This document shows positions 300 through 26,850 of a DNA stretch of 64,000 bases, piece after piece; position 1 is the first letter of the stretch; every line of letters begins with the position of its first letter. Source of the stretch: Candidatus Altimarinota bacterium (GTDB lineage Bacteria; Patescibacteriota; Gracilibacteria; UBA4473); the NCBI GenBank assembly GCA_021736215.1, contig JAIPGI010000001.1:62001-126000 (forward strand), written 5' to 3'. Position numbers and translations under genes: made by a program. Under the pieces are notes generated by a model. The model was not told the origin of the DNA. It saw only the letters and a program-made list of their open reading frames with translations, and ran no database searches.

Positions 300-3200
300 T
301 TAATTCTTAGTAATATCTAATAGAATTTTTTCTCCATCAATGTCCAATGTATCTCCTTCCGCGTCATGAATCACATCACCTCTCACGAGTTCTGTTGCCA
401 AAACTTCGTCCGCAATCATATTTCCAAAAAAGTTGAAAGCCGATTGTAAGAGAGGAGTTGCTGTTGCGTAATAAATCGTTATTCGATCGGAAACGTGAAA
501 ATCTTTTTGTTTTCGCATCTCCTGAATTGCACGAATAATCTCTCGAGCGTATCCCTCTATTTTTAGGGTTTCGGTAATTTCCGTGTCGAGGAGCACGACA
601 ACGCGAGAAGTAGCTTCTGCTTGCATCCCCTCTTTGCAAATAAATCCGATTTCATATTCTCCTAATTCCAAAATTTCTCCGAGAACATCCATTCGTCCCT
701 CCGATAGTTCTTTAAATTTCCCTTCTTTCCCCGCACGAATGAGATCTTGTACTTTTGCTCCAAGACGTGGCCCAACGGCCTTGGCGTTGACGCGAACAAT
801 CTTCTCCGCAACCCCCTTTGTAGAAGTCAGTACTTCTACTTCTTTGACATTGGCTTCTTCGCGAAGGATATCCAAATCGAGATTTATTTTTTCAGTCGTC
901 AAAAAACGCAATTTTCCCAAAGGTTGTCTCAGTTTTATTTTGGTATGAGCCCGAATACTTGCCGCCAGACCAACAATTTCACGAGAAAGATGAACTTTTC
1001 TTTCAGATTCTGGGTCAATCCAGTGTTTAAGTGAGGAGGGGAAAATTTCTAGATGGACCGACTCACTTCCTCCTAGGTTTTTATAAAGTTGTTCTGCAAA
1101 GAATGGGCACACGGGAGCTAAAAGCTTCGAGAGTGTCATCAAAACAAAATGCAGAGTTTCATATCCAGACTGCTTTTCTTCGTTCATCCCTTCTGCCCAA
1201 AACCGTCGTCGAGATCGACGCAGATACCAGTTATTGAGCTGATCAACAAATTCTGGAACGAGTCTCAATGCCCCCTCTAAATCAAACGTATCAAAATTCT
1301 TTCGGAATTTCCCAATCAGGGTTTGGGTTTCAGAAAGAATCCATTGATCGAGTTCTGTTTTGGCATTTGGAAGAGCAAAAAATAATTTATACATTCCTGT
1401 CTGCACCATGGGAACGTGTAAATAATCCTCAATACTCTTCACCTCATGAAGACTGGCTTCTATGGCTCGAATTGGATCGCCATGCGAAACGACAACAACT
1501 GTTTCCCCCTGATGAGTTCGGCTTATCTCATCAAAAAAAGATCTCATTCTTTTTTTCACGAATGAAGCCGGTTCTGTTGTCTTGTCTTGAAGGCGATCAT
1601 GAACCGTTCTAAATGGCTGTTTTTCCAAATCCCCAAAATAGAGTTCTTTTAATCGATTATCCGTTTGAATTTCTCCTAAAAATTTGGTTTTTTCTTTTAT
1701 AATTTGAGCCGTTTCTTGTGTTCTATAAAAAGGAGAAGCATAAAGAGCGTCTATTTTCCCAAAATTCTGAGCAGCTTTTGCTGCTTGGCGTTTCCCCGTA
1801 AGCGTCAGATGGTGAGGATTTTTTACTTCGCCAGAATAAATTTTAGCAACATTGTGATCCGCCTCTCCGTGCCGAACAAAAATAAATTTCGTAGGAGACC
1901 ATCCATCAATGTTGGCATAGGTTGAAAAAAATTGGTAGGTCGAGCGAAGAGGCAAGAGGACTGATTTTAATACTTCATCCACTCCTTTTTCGGAAAACCG
2001 CAAATTTTCTCCCCGTGCAACTGGGGAATTTAATAAATAAAATCTCATCGCATCAGCTCCGTATTTTTCAAAAATCAAATTCGGATCAGGATAATTTTTC
2101 TTTGATTTAGACATTTTATTCCCGTCTTCTGCCAAAACGATTCCATTTGTAATGACATTTTGGAAAACATTTTTCCCAAAAAGAGCGACTCCCAAAACAT
2201 GCAAAGTGTAGAACCACCCTCGCGTCTGATCGAGTCCCTCCGCAATAAAGTCTGCTGGACGAAATTTTTTGTCTCCAAACGGGTGATGGATAGATGCGTA
2301 AGGCATTGACCCCGACTCAAACCAACAGTCCAACACTTCGGGAATCCTTTTCATTATCCCCTGAGGGTTGAGGCGAGGAATACACTTAGGACATTTCCAA
2401 GAAAGATCATCAACAAAATGCTTATGCAAATCTTCTACTTTTTCACCAGAAAATTTTTCCAGTTCTTTACGAGAAGTAATTACTTGAACCTCTCCACACT
2501 GTTCACACCTCCACACGGGAATAAGTGCTCCCCAGTAACGATTCCTGCTAATAGCCCAATCCGGTGCTTCTTCAAGCATTTTCCCAAATCGCCCATCTCG
2601 AAGGTGAGACGGAATCCAATTAATTTTTTTATTCTGAGAAATAATTTCTTTTTTTATTTTTTGAATATTCACAAACCAAGTACGGACTCCCCGATACATA
2701 AGCGCACAATCCGTTCTCCAACAATGCGGATAGGAGTGTCGAACCTGAGAACGATGAAAGAGTTTTTCTCCCAAATGTTCCAGTACCCATGTATTGGCAT
2801 TTTTTTTGTCAGATCCTTCTACTTCTGGATCGGATCGAAAATACAACCCATCAAGTTCTGAAATGGCAGCTGAAAAATATCCATTTTCATCAATGGGATT
2901 TTCGAGTGGAGAAATATCGTTTTCTGCACATATCCGAGCATCGTCTTCTCCAAAATTCGGTGCCATATGGACAATTCCCGTTCCATCTTCTGCTCCGACA
3001 AAATCCCCTCCAAGCATTTTAAATGCATTTTTATGGTCTGGAAAAAATGGGAAAAGTGGTTTGTATTTTTCGCCAACAAGACTTTTCCCGAAACAAGATT
3101 CTTCTTCAGTCCAAAATCCTGCATAATTTCCGTCTTCGATAATTCCATACTTTTCTAAAACCTCGCGTCCAAGCCAATAAGCTTCTCCTGATTCTTCATT

Positions 3201-6502: not shown

Positions 6503-7207
6503 TTAAGAGAAACTCTTTAAAAACTCCAAATGCTCTAAAAAATCTTTCCAAGTAAAAAGTTCATATTTTTTCTCAAGAATATTTTTCACTTCTTCGTTCT
6601 CTGGAAATTCCAACACTCTTTTATATTTTTCTTCTTCAGAATCTCCAGAAAGATAGTACATTTGCGTTTCTAAATTATCTTTTATTTCCGATAATTCATA
6701 ATAATAAATTTTATTCCATTCAGAAAGAGTCTTGATCTCTTCTTGTTCCCCCTCCCGCACATCTAGCGCAACTTGGATCTCAGAAGGATGAAAAAGATTT
6801 GACTCCTCAGCAATTCGTTGGAGAATTGTTTTTTTCTTTTCTTCTTGTCTCCTTATGAGAGCCCTCAAATCCTCCATGTTCGATATACCCGAATCCGGAA
6901 ATGGAACATTAACTCTCCGCAAAATAGACGCCAATGCTATTGCCGCCGACGGATACTTGTCCATGGTTTCATCAAATTCTTCTTCAACTGTCTCAACTAA
7001 TTTTTCTAAAACAGCTATTTCCGCACAAACATCTTTAAATTGCTCTTCTAAAAAATTTGTTCCAGGAGTAATCACATTCTTTATTTCTTCTCGAACCCTT
7101 TTTTTACTCGAAACAATTGGTTCTTCTCTGTTATCCGGAAAAACCAAAAAAATTTGTTCTCCCAAGGAAAAATCTTTTCTTCGTTTTTTATTTCGATCGC
7201 TTTCCAT
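6503..7207 (-). CDS. Hypothetical acidic, helical protein
   Basis: I do not recognise this 234-residue protein. It is highly charged, has no signal peptide or membrane segment, and has long stretches likely to be coiled coil (VLEKLVETVEEEFDETMDKY near residue 70 and a KKK-rich helix near 118). The N-terminus is Lys/Arg-rich. It lies upstream of the slipin gene on the same strand with a 55-bp gap and downstream of a small unknown gene with a 37-bp gap, so a shared transcript is likely. Codon use and AT-rich composition resemble lineage-specific CPR genes. Confidence 0.6.
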   Translation of the reverse strand: MESDRNKKRRKDFSLGEQIFLVFPDNREEPIVSSKKRVREEIKNVITPGTNFLEEQFKDVCAEIAVLEKLVETVEEEFDETMDKYPSAAIALASILRRVNVPFPDSGISNMEDLRALIRRQEEKKKTILQRIAEESNLFHPSEIQVALDVREGEQEEIKTLSEWNKIYYYELSEIKDNLETQMYYLSGDSEEEKYKRVLEFPENEEVKNILEKKYELFTWKDFLEHLEFLKSFS

Positions 7208-7489: not shown

Positions 7490-9289
7490 TTACTTTTTCA
7501 TCATCGCAAAAAAAGCGTCTTGCGGAATTGTTATTTTTCCAAATTGTTTAAGTCGTTTTTTTCCTTTTTTTTGCTTTTGAAGCAATTTATTTTTTCGAGT
7601 GACATCTCCTCCATAAAGCTTAGCGGTAACATCCTTTCTGAGGGCCGAAATAGTACTTCTAGCAATAATACGAGCTCCCACCGCCGCCTGAATAGCGATG
7701 GCAAACTGGGCTTTTGGGATTATGTCCTTGAGTTTTTCACACCACGAATTTCCAATACGAAACGCATCGTCTTTGTGGACAATCTGACTTAATGCATCAA
7801 CTCGATCTCCCGCAACAAGGATGTCGAGCCGAACCAAACTCCCGGCACGTATCCCTATAGGCTCGTAGGACATAGAGGCATATCCTGATGTAATAGATTT
7901 CAAGTCATCATAAAAATCCGTAATGATTGAAGCTAGGGGAATTTCAAAAAAAAGCTCAACCCGTTTCTCTCCGACATATTGTAGATTTTTGGAGATCCCC
8001 CGTCGAGAAGTGCAAAGCTCCATCACTGATCCCACGAATTCAGCCGGACAAAGAATGGTAATCTTCATCCATGGTTCTAAAATTTCTTGATAGTTCCCAG
8101 CATCTGGAAGTTCCCCTGGATTGGAGATTTCGTGTGACTCTGTGGCATTATCGATAATGTGATACGAAACGGATGGCGCGGTAATCATAATATCTAAATC
8201 AAATTCCCGTTCCAATCGCTCTTGGATAATGTCCAAGTGTAAAAGCCCCAAGAAACCACATCGAAATCCATGTCCCAACGCTCCCGAATGTTCTGGCGAG
8301 AAAGTTAATGAAGCATCGTTAAGGGAGAGTTTTTCTAATGCTTTTCTCAAAAACGAAAAGTCTTCTCCGCTTGTCGGATAAACTCCGGCAAAAACAAATG
8401 GGGTTACTTCTTTGTAGCCTGGTAAGGATTTTGGAGTTATTGATTTTCCTTTCCAAACAGTTTCTCCAACTTTGGCATCAGTAACATTTTTGAGCCCAGT
8501 AACAACATACCCAACTTCTCCTGTTTTAATGATAGGAGTTGGTGAATAATCGGGATTTAAAAACCCCACTTCCAGTGCCTCTATTTGTCGGGAAGATTTC
8601 AGTAGTTTGAGCTTGTCTCCCTTGTGAATTTCCCCTTGAAATACCCGCACGCTACACACCACTCCTCTGTACGAGTCAAATGTGGAATCAAAAATAAGTG
8701 CTCGAGTTTCTCCTTCGGTAAATATCTCTGGAACTGTACGGAATAGTTCATTCCCTCCGGGGATTGGTACTTTTTGGATGATATGATCCAAAAGGTCTGG
8801 AACCCCCTTTCCTTCTTTTGCTGAAACCATCAAAATATCTTCGGCCGGAAACCCAAGTAGCTTTTCTATTTCTTCCGCTCGACGTTCTGGTTCTGCCGCT
8901 GGAAGATCTATCTTATTGAGAACTGGGATGATCTCGAGCCCATGTTCCAAGGCCATGTACACGTTAGCAAGTGTTTGCGCCTCAATCCCTTGCGTCGCAT
9001 CAACCACAAGGATCGCCCCCTCACAAGCGGCTAAACTGCGAGAAACCTCGTACGAAAAATCAACGTGTCCGGGAGTATCGATAAGATTCAACTGTACTCC
9101 TTTCCACTGCATTCTCACAGGCTGAAGTTTTATAGTAATTCCTCGCTCTCTTTCCAAATCCATCCGATCAAGAAGTTGCTCTTTCATTGCTCTCTTATCA
9201 ACAGTCCCTGTGATTTCGAGTAAACGGTCCGCAAGGGTTGATTTCCCGTGATCAATGTGAGCAATAATGCAGAAGTTCCTGATTTCCAT
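7490..9289 (-). CDS. lepA: Elongation factor 4 (LepA), ribosomal back-translocase GTPase
   Basis: LepA binds stalled ribosomes and helps elongation and ribosome assembly. The start MEIRNFCIIAHIDHGKST contains the P-loop [16 protein letters not shown] (G3) and NKIDLP (G4) follow, and the C-terminal LepA-specific domain ends in KLYGGDVTRKNKLLQKQKKGKKRLK, in part. With this start the protein has 599 residues, normal for the family. A longer reading frame opens at 9343. I rejected that extension because a good promoter (TTGCAA-16-TACAAT, 9326-9299) lies between the two starts and places transcription within a few bases of the ATG at 9289. The gene is divergent from the prepilin cluster. Confidence 0.97.
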   Translation of the reverse strand: MEIRNFCIIAHIDHGKSTLADRLLEITGTVDKRAMKEQLLDRMDLERERGITIKLQPVRMQWKGVQLNLIDTPGHVDFSYEVSRSLAACEGAILVVDATQGIEAQTLANVYMALEHGLEIIPVLNKIDLPAAEPERRAEEIEKLLGFPAEDILMVSAKEGKGVPDLLDHIIQKVPIPGGNELFRTVPEIFTEGETRALIFDSTFDSYRGVVCSVRVFQGEIHKGDKLKLLKSSRQIEALEVGFLNPDYSPTPIIKTGEVGYVVTGLKNVTDAKVGETVWKGKSITPKSLPGYKEVTPFVFAGVYPTSGEDFSFLRKALEKLSLNDASLTFSPEHSGALGHGFRCGFLGLLHLDIIQERLEREFDLDIMITAPSVSYHIIDNATESHEISNPGELPDAGNYQEILEPWMKITILCPAEFVGSVMELCTSRRGISKNLQYVGEKRVELFFEIPLASIITDFYDDLKSITSGYASMSYEPIGIRAGSLVRLDILVAGDRVDALSQIVHKDDAFRIGNSWCEKLKDIIPKAQFAIAIQAAVGARIIARSTISALRKDVTAKLYGGDVTRKNKLLQKQKKGKKRLKQFGKITIPQDAFFAMMKK

Positions 9290-10603: not shown

Positions 10604-11453
10604 AAAGACATTAGCATTTACCCTTGTTGAAATTCTCATTGCAATAGGTATTGGGGGAGTAATTATTACTACAGCATTTGGAACTATTGGAAATATATAT
10701 CTTATGCAGAAAAGGGTTCGTATTTCTCAAGATTTTCATTCAGAATGTCGTTTTCTCATGGAGCGAATTGTTCAAATGATTCGCAACAATACTATCGATT
10801 ATGATCGTTTTTTTACAAATCCAGGAGGATGTGACGATGACTATGCCACGAATTTTTATCAAGATACAAATGGAGACGGTGTCCGTGATCGAAACCTTGG
10901 GGGACTTACTGCTTCTGGGGCGATAGATGTGTGCACAGAGGCTTGGACGGGATCACAAGGAACCCTTTATCTTATTAATGGAACTCGTACGCTTCAAACT
11001 GCTATTAGGGAAACATTAGATGGGAGTCATAAGGTTGAGGCTGAACGACGCCTCGGTGCCGACTTAGATAATGATGGGAAAGTAGATCTTTGGAGTAATT
11101 CTCCCATTTGGAATCGCAACGGCCTAGGTCTCTGCGAAATACAAAGTGGGGTTGATTTTTATCCTATTATAGGAGAAGCCTCCTCCCAAGATTTTTGTTC
11201 ACAAGCACATCCTTGGACGGTCCTTTCTCCAAATCAAATTGATATAGAAAATTTATTCTTTGAACCATCACCCACTCGGGATCCTTTTTTGAGCTTTGCC
11301 ATAAACGATGCGCAAATACACCCTCATGTATTTGTTGCCATCAAGGCAAGATTACGATCCCCAGAAAATTTTGGTTTGGAAATAAGTGCGGCCCCTGATA
11401 CATTATTACAGACTGTCGCTTCTTCACGAGTCTTTGGGAATACGCGAAAGTAA
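10593..11453 (+). CDS. Prepilin-like protein (PilW/GspJ type) with Ca-binding-like loops
   Basis: From the ATG at 10593 the protein begins MNIKKTLAFTLVEILIAIGIG, a prepilin motif with Glu at +5 and Ala rather than Gly before the cleavage site, which prepilin peptidases accept. The head has two acidic loops, DTNGDGVRDRN and DLDNDGKVDLW, that resemble Ca2+-binding EF-hand or thrombospondin-3 loops. The ATG at 10575 would add six residues and is less fitting for a prepilin leader. It overlaps the previous gene by 11 bp and ends 4 bp before gltX. Confidence 0.85.
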   Translation: MNIKKTLAFTLVEILIAIGIGGVIITTAFGTIGNIYLMQKRVRISQDFHSECRFLMERIVQMIRNNTIDYDRFFTNPGGCDDDYATNFYQDTNGDGVRDRNLGGLTASGAIDVCTEAWTGSQGTLYLINGTRTLQTAIRETLDGSHKVEAERRLGADLDNDGKVDLWSNSPIWNRNGLGLCEIQSGVDFYPIIGEASSQDFCSQAHPWTVLSPNQIDIENLFFEPSPTRDPFLSFAINDAQIHPHVFVAIKARLRSPENFGLEISAAPDTLLQTVASSRVFGNTRK

Positions 11454-25998: not shown

Positions 25999-26019
25999 GA
26001 CGAAGGCAGTGTAATTTTT

Positions 26020-26047
26020 TTGACAAAAATAGGAAGTTCTTTAGACT
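26020..26047 (+). promoter_or_regulatory. Promoter of the Trp leader
   Basis: Consensus TTGACA (26020-26025), a 16-bp spacer and TAGACT (26042-26047). Transcription should begin near 26054, two bases before the leader ATG. Confidence 0.65.
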
Positions 26048-26055
26048 CTTGACAG

Positions 26056-26127
26056 ATGAATCGACTTCTCATGGCTTTCTCTTGGTGGTGGACACTGTCC
26101 GGCAGTGGGGTCGTTTTGAGTATTTAG
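26056..26127 (+). CDS. Trp-codon leader peptide (attenuator leader)
   Basis: A 23-codon frame begins MNRLLMAFSWWW, with three consecutive TGG Trp codons at positions 10-12 (26083-26091), and ends at TAG 26125-26127. CACTG (26093-26097) can pair with CAGTG (26103-26107) as a first hairpin. GGGGTCG (26107-26113) can pair with CGGCCCC (26161-26167), which would hide the left arm of the terminator at 26160. This is the three-hairpin logic of the enterobacterial trp leader: a ribosome stalled at the Trp codons leaves 26107-26113 free, so the terminator cannot form. The leader ATG is almost at the predicted 5' end of the RNA. Protein-level existence is not shown; the call rests on the codons plus the exclusive pairings. 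Confidence 0.7.
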   Translation: MNRLLMAFSWWWTLSGSGVVLSI

Positions 26128-26159
26128 TTTCATCCTTTCCGAAATCTAAGTATTCTCGT

Positions 26160-26181
26160 CCGGCCCCTTGGCCGGTTTTTT
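26160..26181 (+). terminator. Intrinsic terminator of the Trp attenuator
   Basis: CCGGCC (26160-26165), loop CCTT, GGCCGG (26170-26175), then six T. It ends 33 nt after the leader stop codon and about 190 bp before the next gene. Confidence 0.85.
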
Positions 26182-26183
26182 GT

Positions 26184-26340
26184 ATATTCTGATATCCTCG
26201 GATAATCAGAATGTTGTTCTTTGAGATTTCAATTTTTCGCCAAAATATACAAGGAGGTTTTTTTATGGGGAAACGTACACATTAAGAGGAGAGGCTCCCA
26301 AATGGGCATCCTTTGTCATGCCCCTTTCTGAAATCAATTA
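26184..26340 (+). other. Structured gap after the Trp attenuator: hairpins and tiny frames
   Basis: A near-perfect hairpin (ATTCTGAT with ATCAGAAT, 26187-26213) is followed by AAGGAGG and then an ATG (26265) opening a six-codon frame MGKRTH. AGAGGAGAGG then precedes another eight-codon frame MGILCHAPF-like near 26302. GGGCAT and ATGCCC (about 26304-26324) can form another stem. The strong ribosome sites on such short frames suggest further leader-type control, but no mechanism is proven. Confidence 0.35.
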
Positions 26341-26370
26341 TTTTATAAACAAACAAAAGGAAAACACCAA

Positions 26371-26619
26371 ATGAATGCTCCAAAAGGATTTTTAACACAA
26401 AAACAATTAGCTCAACTGAAATGTAAATTTTCAGTATCTGAAGCTGAACTTATTAACCTTTTCCAAGAAAATGTCGTTTCTGCTGAATTATTCTTCAAAA
26501 AATCAGAAAAGATTCGTACTTTCCATGACTTCACAACAAAAATACAAAATGTTTCAAGGCTTGTAAAAGCCTCCCAAAAAAATTCAGCATCAACTCCTTC
26601 TGGTGGGTGGCTTTGGTGA
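26371..26619 (+). CDS. Hypothetical 82-residue protein behind the Trp attenuator
   Basis: I do not recognise this protein. It is soluble, basic and mostly helical; FLTQKQLAQLKCKFSVSEAEL (in part, residues 7-27) could be a helix-turn-helix, and the C-terminus ends GGWLW with two Trp. AAAGGAAAAC is a ribosome site 8-9 nt before the ATG. It is the first sizeable gene after the Trp leader and is closed by its own terminator-like stem at 26642-26677, so it appears to be the sole gene of that unit. It might be a regulator or a Trp-linked protein; this is speculation. Confidence 0.6.
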   Translation: MNAPKGFLTQKQLAQLKCKFSVSEAELINLFQENVVSAELFFKKSEKIRTFHDFTTKIQNVSRLVKASQKNSASTPSGGWLW

Positions 26620-26641: not shown

Positions 26642-26682
26642 AAGGGGGTCTGTTATAAAACTCAAACAGGCTCCCTTTCTTT
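26642..26682 (+). terminator. Terminator-like stem after the 82-residue gene
   Basis: AAGGGGGTCTGTT (26642-26654) pairs along its full 13 bases, with two G-U wobbles, with AACAGGCTCCCTT (26665-26677); TCTTTATTT follows. The rest of the gap to 26850 shows no gene. Confidence 0.6.
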
Positions 26683-26850
26683 ATTTGACGATGTCAAAAA
26701 TTCCTCTTATTATCATTATGCAAATGATTTCTTGCGTCTCCCAATTTCTCGCCAAACGTCGACGTCCCGTCGGCAAGGGGCGCAAGGAAGTATAGTAATT
26801 AAAAATGAATAGTGAGTAATGAAGAATGAGGAATTCTTAAATTTTTTTAA

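Follow-up and report, generated by a model that had tools for sequence, protein, structure and literature searches.

What does a tryptophan attenuator control when the gene that follows it is neither a trp biosynthesis gene nor trpS? Leader-peptide attenuation is a textbook mechanism in Proteobacteria. The window analyzed here, a stretch of 64,000 nucleotides (C13:62001-126000) from a genome of 1.01 Mb in 17 contigs (G000), was the subject of an original prediction that placed a consensus promoter, a leader frame with three Trp codons, alternative stems and a T-run terminator in front of an unknown 82-residue protein. The attenuator is real, and its leader, stems and terminator are present at the coordinates given below. 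We consider it very likely that the locus is a ribosome-mediated, Trp-specific transcription attenuator driving an 82-amino-acid ORF, whose product most likely takes part in the response to Trp shortage, and that such switches are used more widely in this bacterial group.

Anatomy of the leader

All features of the locus are on the + strand. The promoter (26020..26047) consists of a −35 element TTGACA (26020-26025) and a −10-like TAGACT (26042-26047) separated by a 16-nt spacer; it is a consensus match only, without transcript data. The leader ORF MNRLLMAFSWWWTLSGSGVVLSI (26056..26127), as translated from the sequence, has 23 residues between an ATG at 26056 and a TAG at 26125-26127, with three consecutive TGG codons at 26083-26091. 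Because this ATG lies only 8 nt past the −10-like hexamer and no Shine-Dalgarno motif was seen before it in the window sequence, the leader mRNA is likely leaderless, an inference from sequence alone.

The alternative structures are a 1:2 stem CACTG/CAGTG (RNA CACUG/CAGUG; 26093-26097/26103-26107), a 2:3 antiterminator GGGGUCG/CGGCCCC (26107-26113/26161-26167) that encloses an inner hairpin (26118-26127/26146-26155), and a 3:4 intrinsic terminator, CCGGCCCCTTGGCCGG at 26160-26175 followed by six T residues at 26176-26181. The 1:2 stem and the terminator were read from the sequence; the antiterminator and its inner hairpin are supported by the minimum free energy fold, by covariation and by folding as a function of ribosome position. 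The same three lines of evidence show that antiterminator and terminator are mutually exclusive. Without a ribosome, the RNA of 26050-26181 folds with lowest energy into the antiterminator (z = −3.05; 3 of 200 shuffled sequences were as good). The original prediction thus held for the promoter, the leader frame, the stems, whose coordinates it gave correctly, and the T-run terminator.

Between the terminator and the regulated ORF lie two further elements. A second hairpin just 3' of the terminator (26186..26212), identified by eye, has a counterpart in the related genome G012 that is changed in both arms, and by eye a third genome, G013, has a hairpin of different sequence in the same place; protection of a 5' end or an operator are possible roles. 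A micro-ORF, MGKRTH (26265..26285), has a strong Shine-Dalgarno motif and, by sequence and alignment, is inside an insert missing from G012. The regulated ORF itself occupies 26371..26619. The original prediction had it closed by its own terminator; what we found by eye is a terminator-like hairpin (26642..26677) with a 13-bp stem and a weak T-run that the terminator finder missed. Farther downstream, a gene for a protein of the 23S rRNA-intervening-sequence type (PF05635; 26851-27207) is inserted between the ORF and glyA, and a tiny basic peptide ending in ...RRPVGKGRKEV is encoded at 26724-26795 (start maybe at 26691 or 26718), just before glyA. Among the 20 genomes of the family, 11 encode a peptide with the ending GKGRKE(V/I) upstream of glyA.

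Conservation and covariation

The leader, its structures, their conservation and covariation, and the co-location with the ORF are shown by sequence. The family set comprised 20 genomes, and class searches used 277, 288 or 353 genomes depending on the search. Within the family, direct search recovered the 82-amino-acid ORF in G000 and G012 only, and blastn likewise recovered the leader DNA, at 73% identity, in these two genomes, other matches being short; a blastn match in G007 proved on reading to contain no leader. A covariance model built from these two leaders gave a third, weak match (E 0.1) in G013, which belongs to another genus, for a total of three leaders in two genera. The order in G013 is that of the window: a divergent trmB, TTGACA, the leader MQNTSKTSWWRLNKLDLKVAVSIL, a terminator, the ORF, a terminator-like hairpin and glyA. 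The G012 leader is MNYSLATLNWWWTPSGGEVAVSI. The aligned TTGACA is kept in all three leaders, as is a U-rich tail, and the terminator stem is identical in G012. The leader frames, whose translation is itself inferred, carry WWW in G000 and G012 and WWR in G013. Loss of the leader frame in relatives would have refuted the original prediction; the frame is conserved in three genomes.

The arrangement of divergent trmB, leader, ORF and glyA is shared by 3 of the 20 family genomes. trmB was found in all 20, and in the remaining 17 no leader is present at the trmB locus, including G014, of the same genus as G013, where none was found on the trmB 5' side. On that side of trmB in G011 (L135), a 58-amino-acid frame contains TGGTGG and was not counted as a leader. 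Beyond the family, the strict leader pattern matched 2 of 288 class genomes. A covariance model search (R2) of 353 class genomes gave matches in 10 genomes at E<=1, 7 of them new. The five of these that were read comprise two Met leaders and three places without a leader, one of them in L195, whose CCC leader lies at another position; the other two, in L194 and L197, are short matches.

Substitutions among the three leaders largely preserve pairing. Relative to G000, the 1:2 stem of G012 is swapped to CUCCG/CGGAG through two compensatory changes; a further one is found in the 2:3 stem. In the three-sequence alignment, 8 of 29 antiterminator pairs change on both sides, matched in 1 of 500 shuffles, and 89.7% of cells are paired, equalled in none of 500. 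Controls in which the structure was slid along the alignment scored far lower, although this control favors the tested structure because that structure was derived from the same alignment. These counts depend on only three sequences, two of them from one genus, and the fold of the G013 leader is weak compared to shuffles (z −1.42).

The end of the leader peptide (V-A/V-V/L-S-I) is kept even in G013 despite other codon changes. One explanation is that the peptide, or the terminated leader RNA, acts in trans like peTrpL and rnTrpL of Sinorhizobium meliloti, attenuation of the ORF being secondary. The conserved end and the probably leaderless start, as in S. meliloti (PMC7298713), fit this view. 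However, the conserved codons coincide in part with strand 2 and with the inner hairpin, which means that RNA structure alone can explain why they are kept, and the ORF is always downstream of the leader. We consider a trans-acting product unlikely as the main function and retain attenuation of the ORF as the preferred reading.

Dependence of the switch on ribosome position

We modeled the switch by setting the ribosome codon by codon and folding only the RNA ahead of it. With the ribosome on the Trp codons and its edge at A-site +9 or +12, the terminator probability is 0.00-0.04 in G000, G012 and G013; past the Trp codons it exceeds 0.95 within one to five codons and stays at ~1.00 through the stop codon in all three. 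With the edge at A-site +15, the probability is 0.54 at the third and last Trp codon of G012. When the 3' part of the leader was shuffled, the switch survived in 7, 2 and 2 of 1000 sequences for the three genomes. In silico, then, the position of the ribosome on the sensing codons picks the antiterminator in each genome.

A translation-independent switch, such as a T-box, a riboswitch or a protein-bound leader that merely contains Trp codons, would be consistent with the antiterminator being the free-RNA minimum. Against this, the modeled switch depends on ribosome position, and no Rfam family matched the leader at the gathering score, nor was any match at E<=10 credible. At the gathering score the window has three matches, all tRNAs, with Trp_leader and T-box absent; at E<=10, the region 26000-26400 has five, none of them Trp_leader, and T-box is again absent. 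We regard this alternative as very unlikely.

Chance juxtaposition of a short Trp-rich frame and an ordinary terminator is a further possibility. Short WWW frames do arise by chance: 774 kb of G012 contain five, with a known switch only in the one already described, and a pattern scan of contigs returned 96 stretches. Of the 80 loci analyzed from these, 11 had a short in-frame ORF, accompanied by a terminator in just one case, L055, which is the G012 leader itself. In 462 kb of its own genome, TGGTGGTGG occurs in a single short in-frame ORF, which is this leader. Conservation in two genera, covariation, the codon-exact switch and the cognate leader and gene pairs found in the same lineage (described below) all but exclude chance. 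The ribosome-dependent attenuator therefore remains the reading that we adopt.

The downstream ORF

The ORF after the Trp leader is of unknown function in all three genomes and is never a trp biosynthetic gene, as the original prediction had stated for the window. It is short and poorly conserved, and the existence of its product is inferred from sequence alone. The window protein (P0001) and its G012 orthologue share 36-39% identity. The G013 orthologue is shorter, and because 4 and 1 of 500 shuffles score as high in its comparisons, its homology leans also on position. No match was found in Pfam, and the best E values elsewhere were not significant (NCBIfam, 0.019 to YlxM, in one member; PHROGs, 0.016; PDB sequences, 0.98). 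No relatives were confirmed in viral contigs, and none were found in plasmids and phages. When 277 class genomes were searched with a profile, 10 had matches at E<=0.01, with clear ones (E<1e-28) restricted to the three genomes already known; the other seven were 7e-4 or weaker, and several contained stops. A relationship to the ORF behind the Met leader of G016 was unsupported, with 359, 68 and 97 of 500 shuffles scoring equally high.

AlphaFold2, given the three sequences, predicts four helices followed by a loose tail at the C terminus (pLDDT 76 and 80). Foldseek returned no match at E<=0.001 for either model, and a weak helical match to a RECQL5 segment (Z 5-6.6) was not used, as this range is common for helical models. 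The product is thus predicted to be a fast-evolving four-helix protein without detected relatives. Transport, one role suggested by the original prediction, is unsupported given a short helical protein, while regulation or a starvation response is still compatible. All three proteins carry a Trp close to the C terminus (...GGWLW, ...GGAW, ...GLWNHD), and in P0001 the only Trp residues are 80 and 82 of 82, from which we infer that the protein is perhaps completed only once Trp returns.

One alternative is that the ORF is a mere passenger and that the real target is farther on, either the micro-peptide before glyA or glyA itself, which encodes serine hydroxymethyltransferase. The presence of glyA downstream in all three genomes fits this view. 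Against it, terminator-like hairpins are found in the sequence behind the ORF in G000, G012 and G013, and all three genomes retain the ORF together with the leader. At the ORF end, no further ribosome-dependent switch was detected. The finder recognized only one of the three terminators there, in G012, and that one is constitutive; a tandem switch is rejected only where it could be tested. We therefore consider the passenger explanation unlikely, and take the 82-amino-acid ORF to be the target.

Tryptophan physiology of the leader genomes

TrpC (PF00218) scored above its family cut-off in 11 of the 20 family genomes; the three Trp-leader genomes all lacked such a match. If three genomes were drawn at random, the probability that each would be one of the nine without TrpC is 84/1140 = 0.07 (calculated by hand). 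This statistic is only a hint, because the genomes cannot be treated as independent and because G012 (80%) and G013 (89%) are incomplete, which could account for part of the absence. No attenuator was found around trpC in a scan of the 11 genomes that have it (164 kb). trpS is present in 19 of the 20 family genomes, and none of 18 trpS sites examined had a Trp leader. G000 has a second trpS at C17:96974-97978 and is the sole family genome with two full-length matches.

Because TrpC was undetected in all three switch genomes, the switch likely serves Trp salvage or a starvation response rather than synthesis. The Trp-linked function proposed in the original prediction is an inference only, resting on the regulation and on the missing TrpC in three genomes. 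Our best guess is that the product is a small soluble protein through which auxotrophs respond to Trp shortage by salvage or adaptation, and not a biosynthetic enzyme.

Leaders for other amino acids in relatives

A general scan of 1.85 Mb of stretches from four genomes required a terminator, a short ORF and a ribosome-dependent switch. It gave 20 matches compared to 10 in reversed sequence; when at least three identical residues were required in the seven codons leading up to the switch, the counts were nine and one. These counts are incomplete, as the G012 Trp leader was missed. Some of the nine are likely noise, namely the Leu or Phe runs that begin with TTG in L243 and L207 and an alternative frame in L276. 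Matches without amino-acid logic (e.g. L240, L219, L293, L301, L244, L243, L207) were regarded as probable noise and excluded.

Several leaders precede genes that match the amino acid they encode. The Thr-run leaders VRNITTTTTTTHP and VKTIATTTTTYTD lie in G012 and G013, of two genera, on the − strand at L205 ~3141-3182 and L267 ~6529-6570, each followed by a switchable terminator and directly by thrS (TIGR00418, 665 and 644 bits; cut-off, 384). The CCC leaders MMNSALRNTICCCTSLS and MIYSQLISNCCCLSKEAPLES, from G013 and G159 in two different families of the class, precede a cysteine synthase-family gene at L276 ~9018-9071 (− strand) and a cysteine synthase/cystathionine beta-synthase-type gene at L195:1807-1872. 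In G012, the leader MKIFLFCFWYWKAPVLPVRICA (FLFCFWYW; L214:9327-9395) precedes an unknown 290-amino-acid ORF together with the gene for a radical SAM protein resembling ThiH. Both the ThiH match and those to cysteine synthase score strongly, yet under curated cut-offs. The cognate pairs, Thr with thrS and Cys with cysteine synthase, are the best argument for attenuation in this lineage and, by extension, for a functional Trp leader.

Phe and Met runs precede genes without an obvious amino-acid match. A Phe leader with a switch, MIQNVFFFFFFFGLALSPVRSGV (FFFFFFF; L235 ~10668-10739, − strand), lies in G000 itself before an unknown 108-amino-acid ORF. A Trp_repressor-family gene (PF01371) is found farther downstream. 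In the Met leaders MQYIYTMMMSMMTLLRGSS of G019 and MQKSTTIMQTMMIPVRGWSW of G016, the switch sits on the Met codons; they lie at L199:2406-2515, before an operon with Pyr_redox_2 and GAF genes, and at L200:4687-4804, before an 83-amino-acid unknown ORF. That the GAF protein of the G019 operon is a free-Met-sulfoxide reductase is no more than a guess; Pfam gives GAF only for it and NCBIfam nothing. Positional folding reproduced the switch at the Thr, Cys, Phe and FLFCFWYW leaders. Judging by sequence, leader-peptide attenuation seems to be a general device of this bacterial group.

Proposed mechanism

In the proposed mechanism, RNA polymerase would start near 26054 and a ribosome would translate the leader from its first codon. 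When charged tRNA-Trp is scarce, the ribosome would stall on the Trp codons (26083-26091) and mask strand 1; strand 2 (26107-26113) would then pair with strand 3 (26161-26167), the terminator would be blocked, and transcription would go on into the 82-amino-acid ORF. When Trp is plentiful, the ribosome would reach the stop codon and cover strand 2, the 3:4 terminator would form, and the leader RNA would end at ~126 nt. The leaderless start, the stalling, the read-through and the role of the protein are inferred, without RNA, protein or expression data.

A bolder reading is that this class of candidate-phyla bacteria, related to Gracilibacteria, runs a set of amino-acid-specific attenuators (Thr with thrS, Cys with cysteine synthase, aromatic residues with a ThiH-like gene, Phe, Met and Trp), several of them apparently leaderless, and that the Trp member in auxotrophs drives an unknown small starvation-response protein that replaces trp genes as the target, a protein maybe transcribed in Trp shortage and finished only on Trp return. 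Taken jointly, we judge these statements slightly more prone to fail in some part than to hold throughout.

The matching of amino acid and gene in reduced genomes suggests that these host-dependent bacteria sense individual charged tRNAs. Where the downstream gene is unknown, the amino-acid run of the leader names the nutrient to which that gene responds; for uncultivated bacteria, this offers a sequence-only route from an unknown protein to one that responds to Trp. The 82-amino-acid protein is a candidate for the means by which a Trp auxotroph gets through a failure of its supplier.

Comparison with known systems

In enterobacterial trpL, a short frame contains consecutive Trp codons, the RNA can form 1:2, 2:3 and 3:4 structures, and a terminator lies before the first gene. 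The window leader shares each of these features. In contrast to enterobacterial trpL, which targets trpE, it acts on an unknown ORF, has no Rfam match, is probably leaderless, and belongs to a candidate-phyla bacterium in which TrpC was not detected. The trpL of S. meliloti is leaderless, precedes trpE(G), and encodes a peptide reported to act in trans (PMC7298713). The window leader resembles it in a predicted leader mRNA start at or next to the AUG, in consecutive Trp codons and in attenuation, but differs in its unknown target; a function in trans could here be inferred by analogy only.

As of 2010, Proteobacteria and Actinobacteria were the groups with known leader-peptide systems, to which His leaders in Firmicutes were added, some preceding hisS paralogues in bacilli (PMC2965389). 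Those His leaders likewise place an amino-acid run in a short frame ahead of a terminator, and they parallel the thrS leaders of the relatives described here; unlike them, the present switch is in a different phylum, and its Trp codons are away from trpS. Mycobacterial polycysteine leaders reportedly tie a Cys run to attenuation (PMC13236596), and the CCC leaders of L276 and L195 before cysteine synthase-type genes, a side finding of this analysis, resemble them in a different phylum. In the open-licence literature searched, we found no report of leader-peptide attenuation in the candidate phyla radiation, Patescibacteria or Gracilibacteria. The mechanism at this locus is a known one, while its target and its host group are apparently new.
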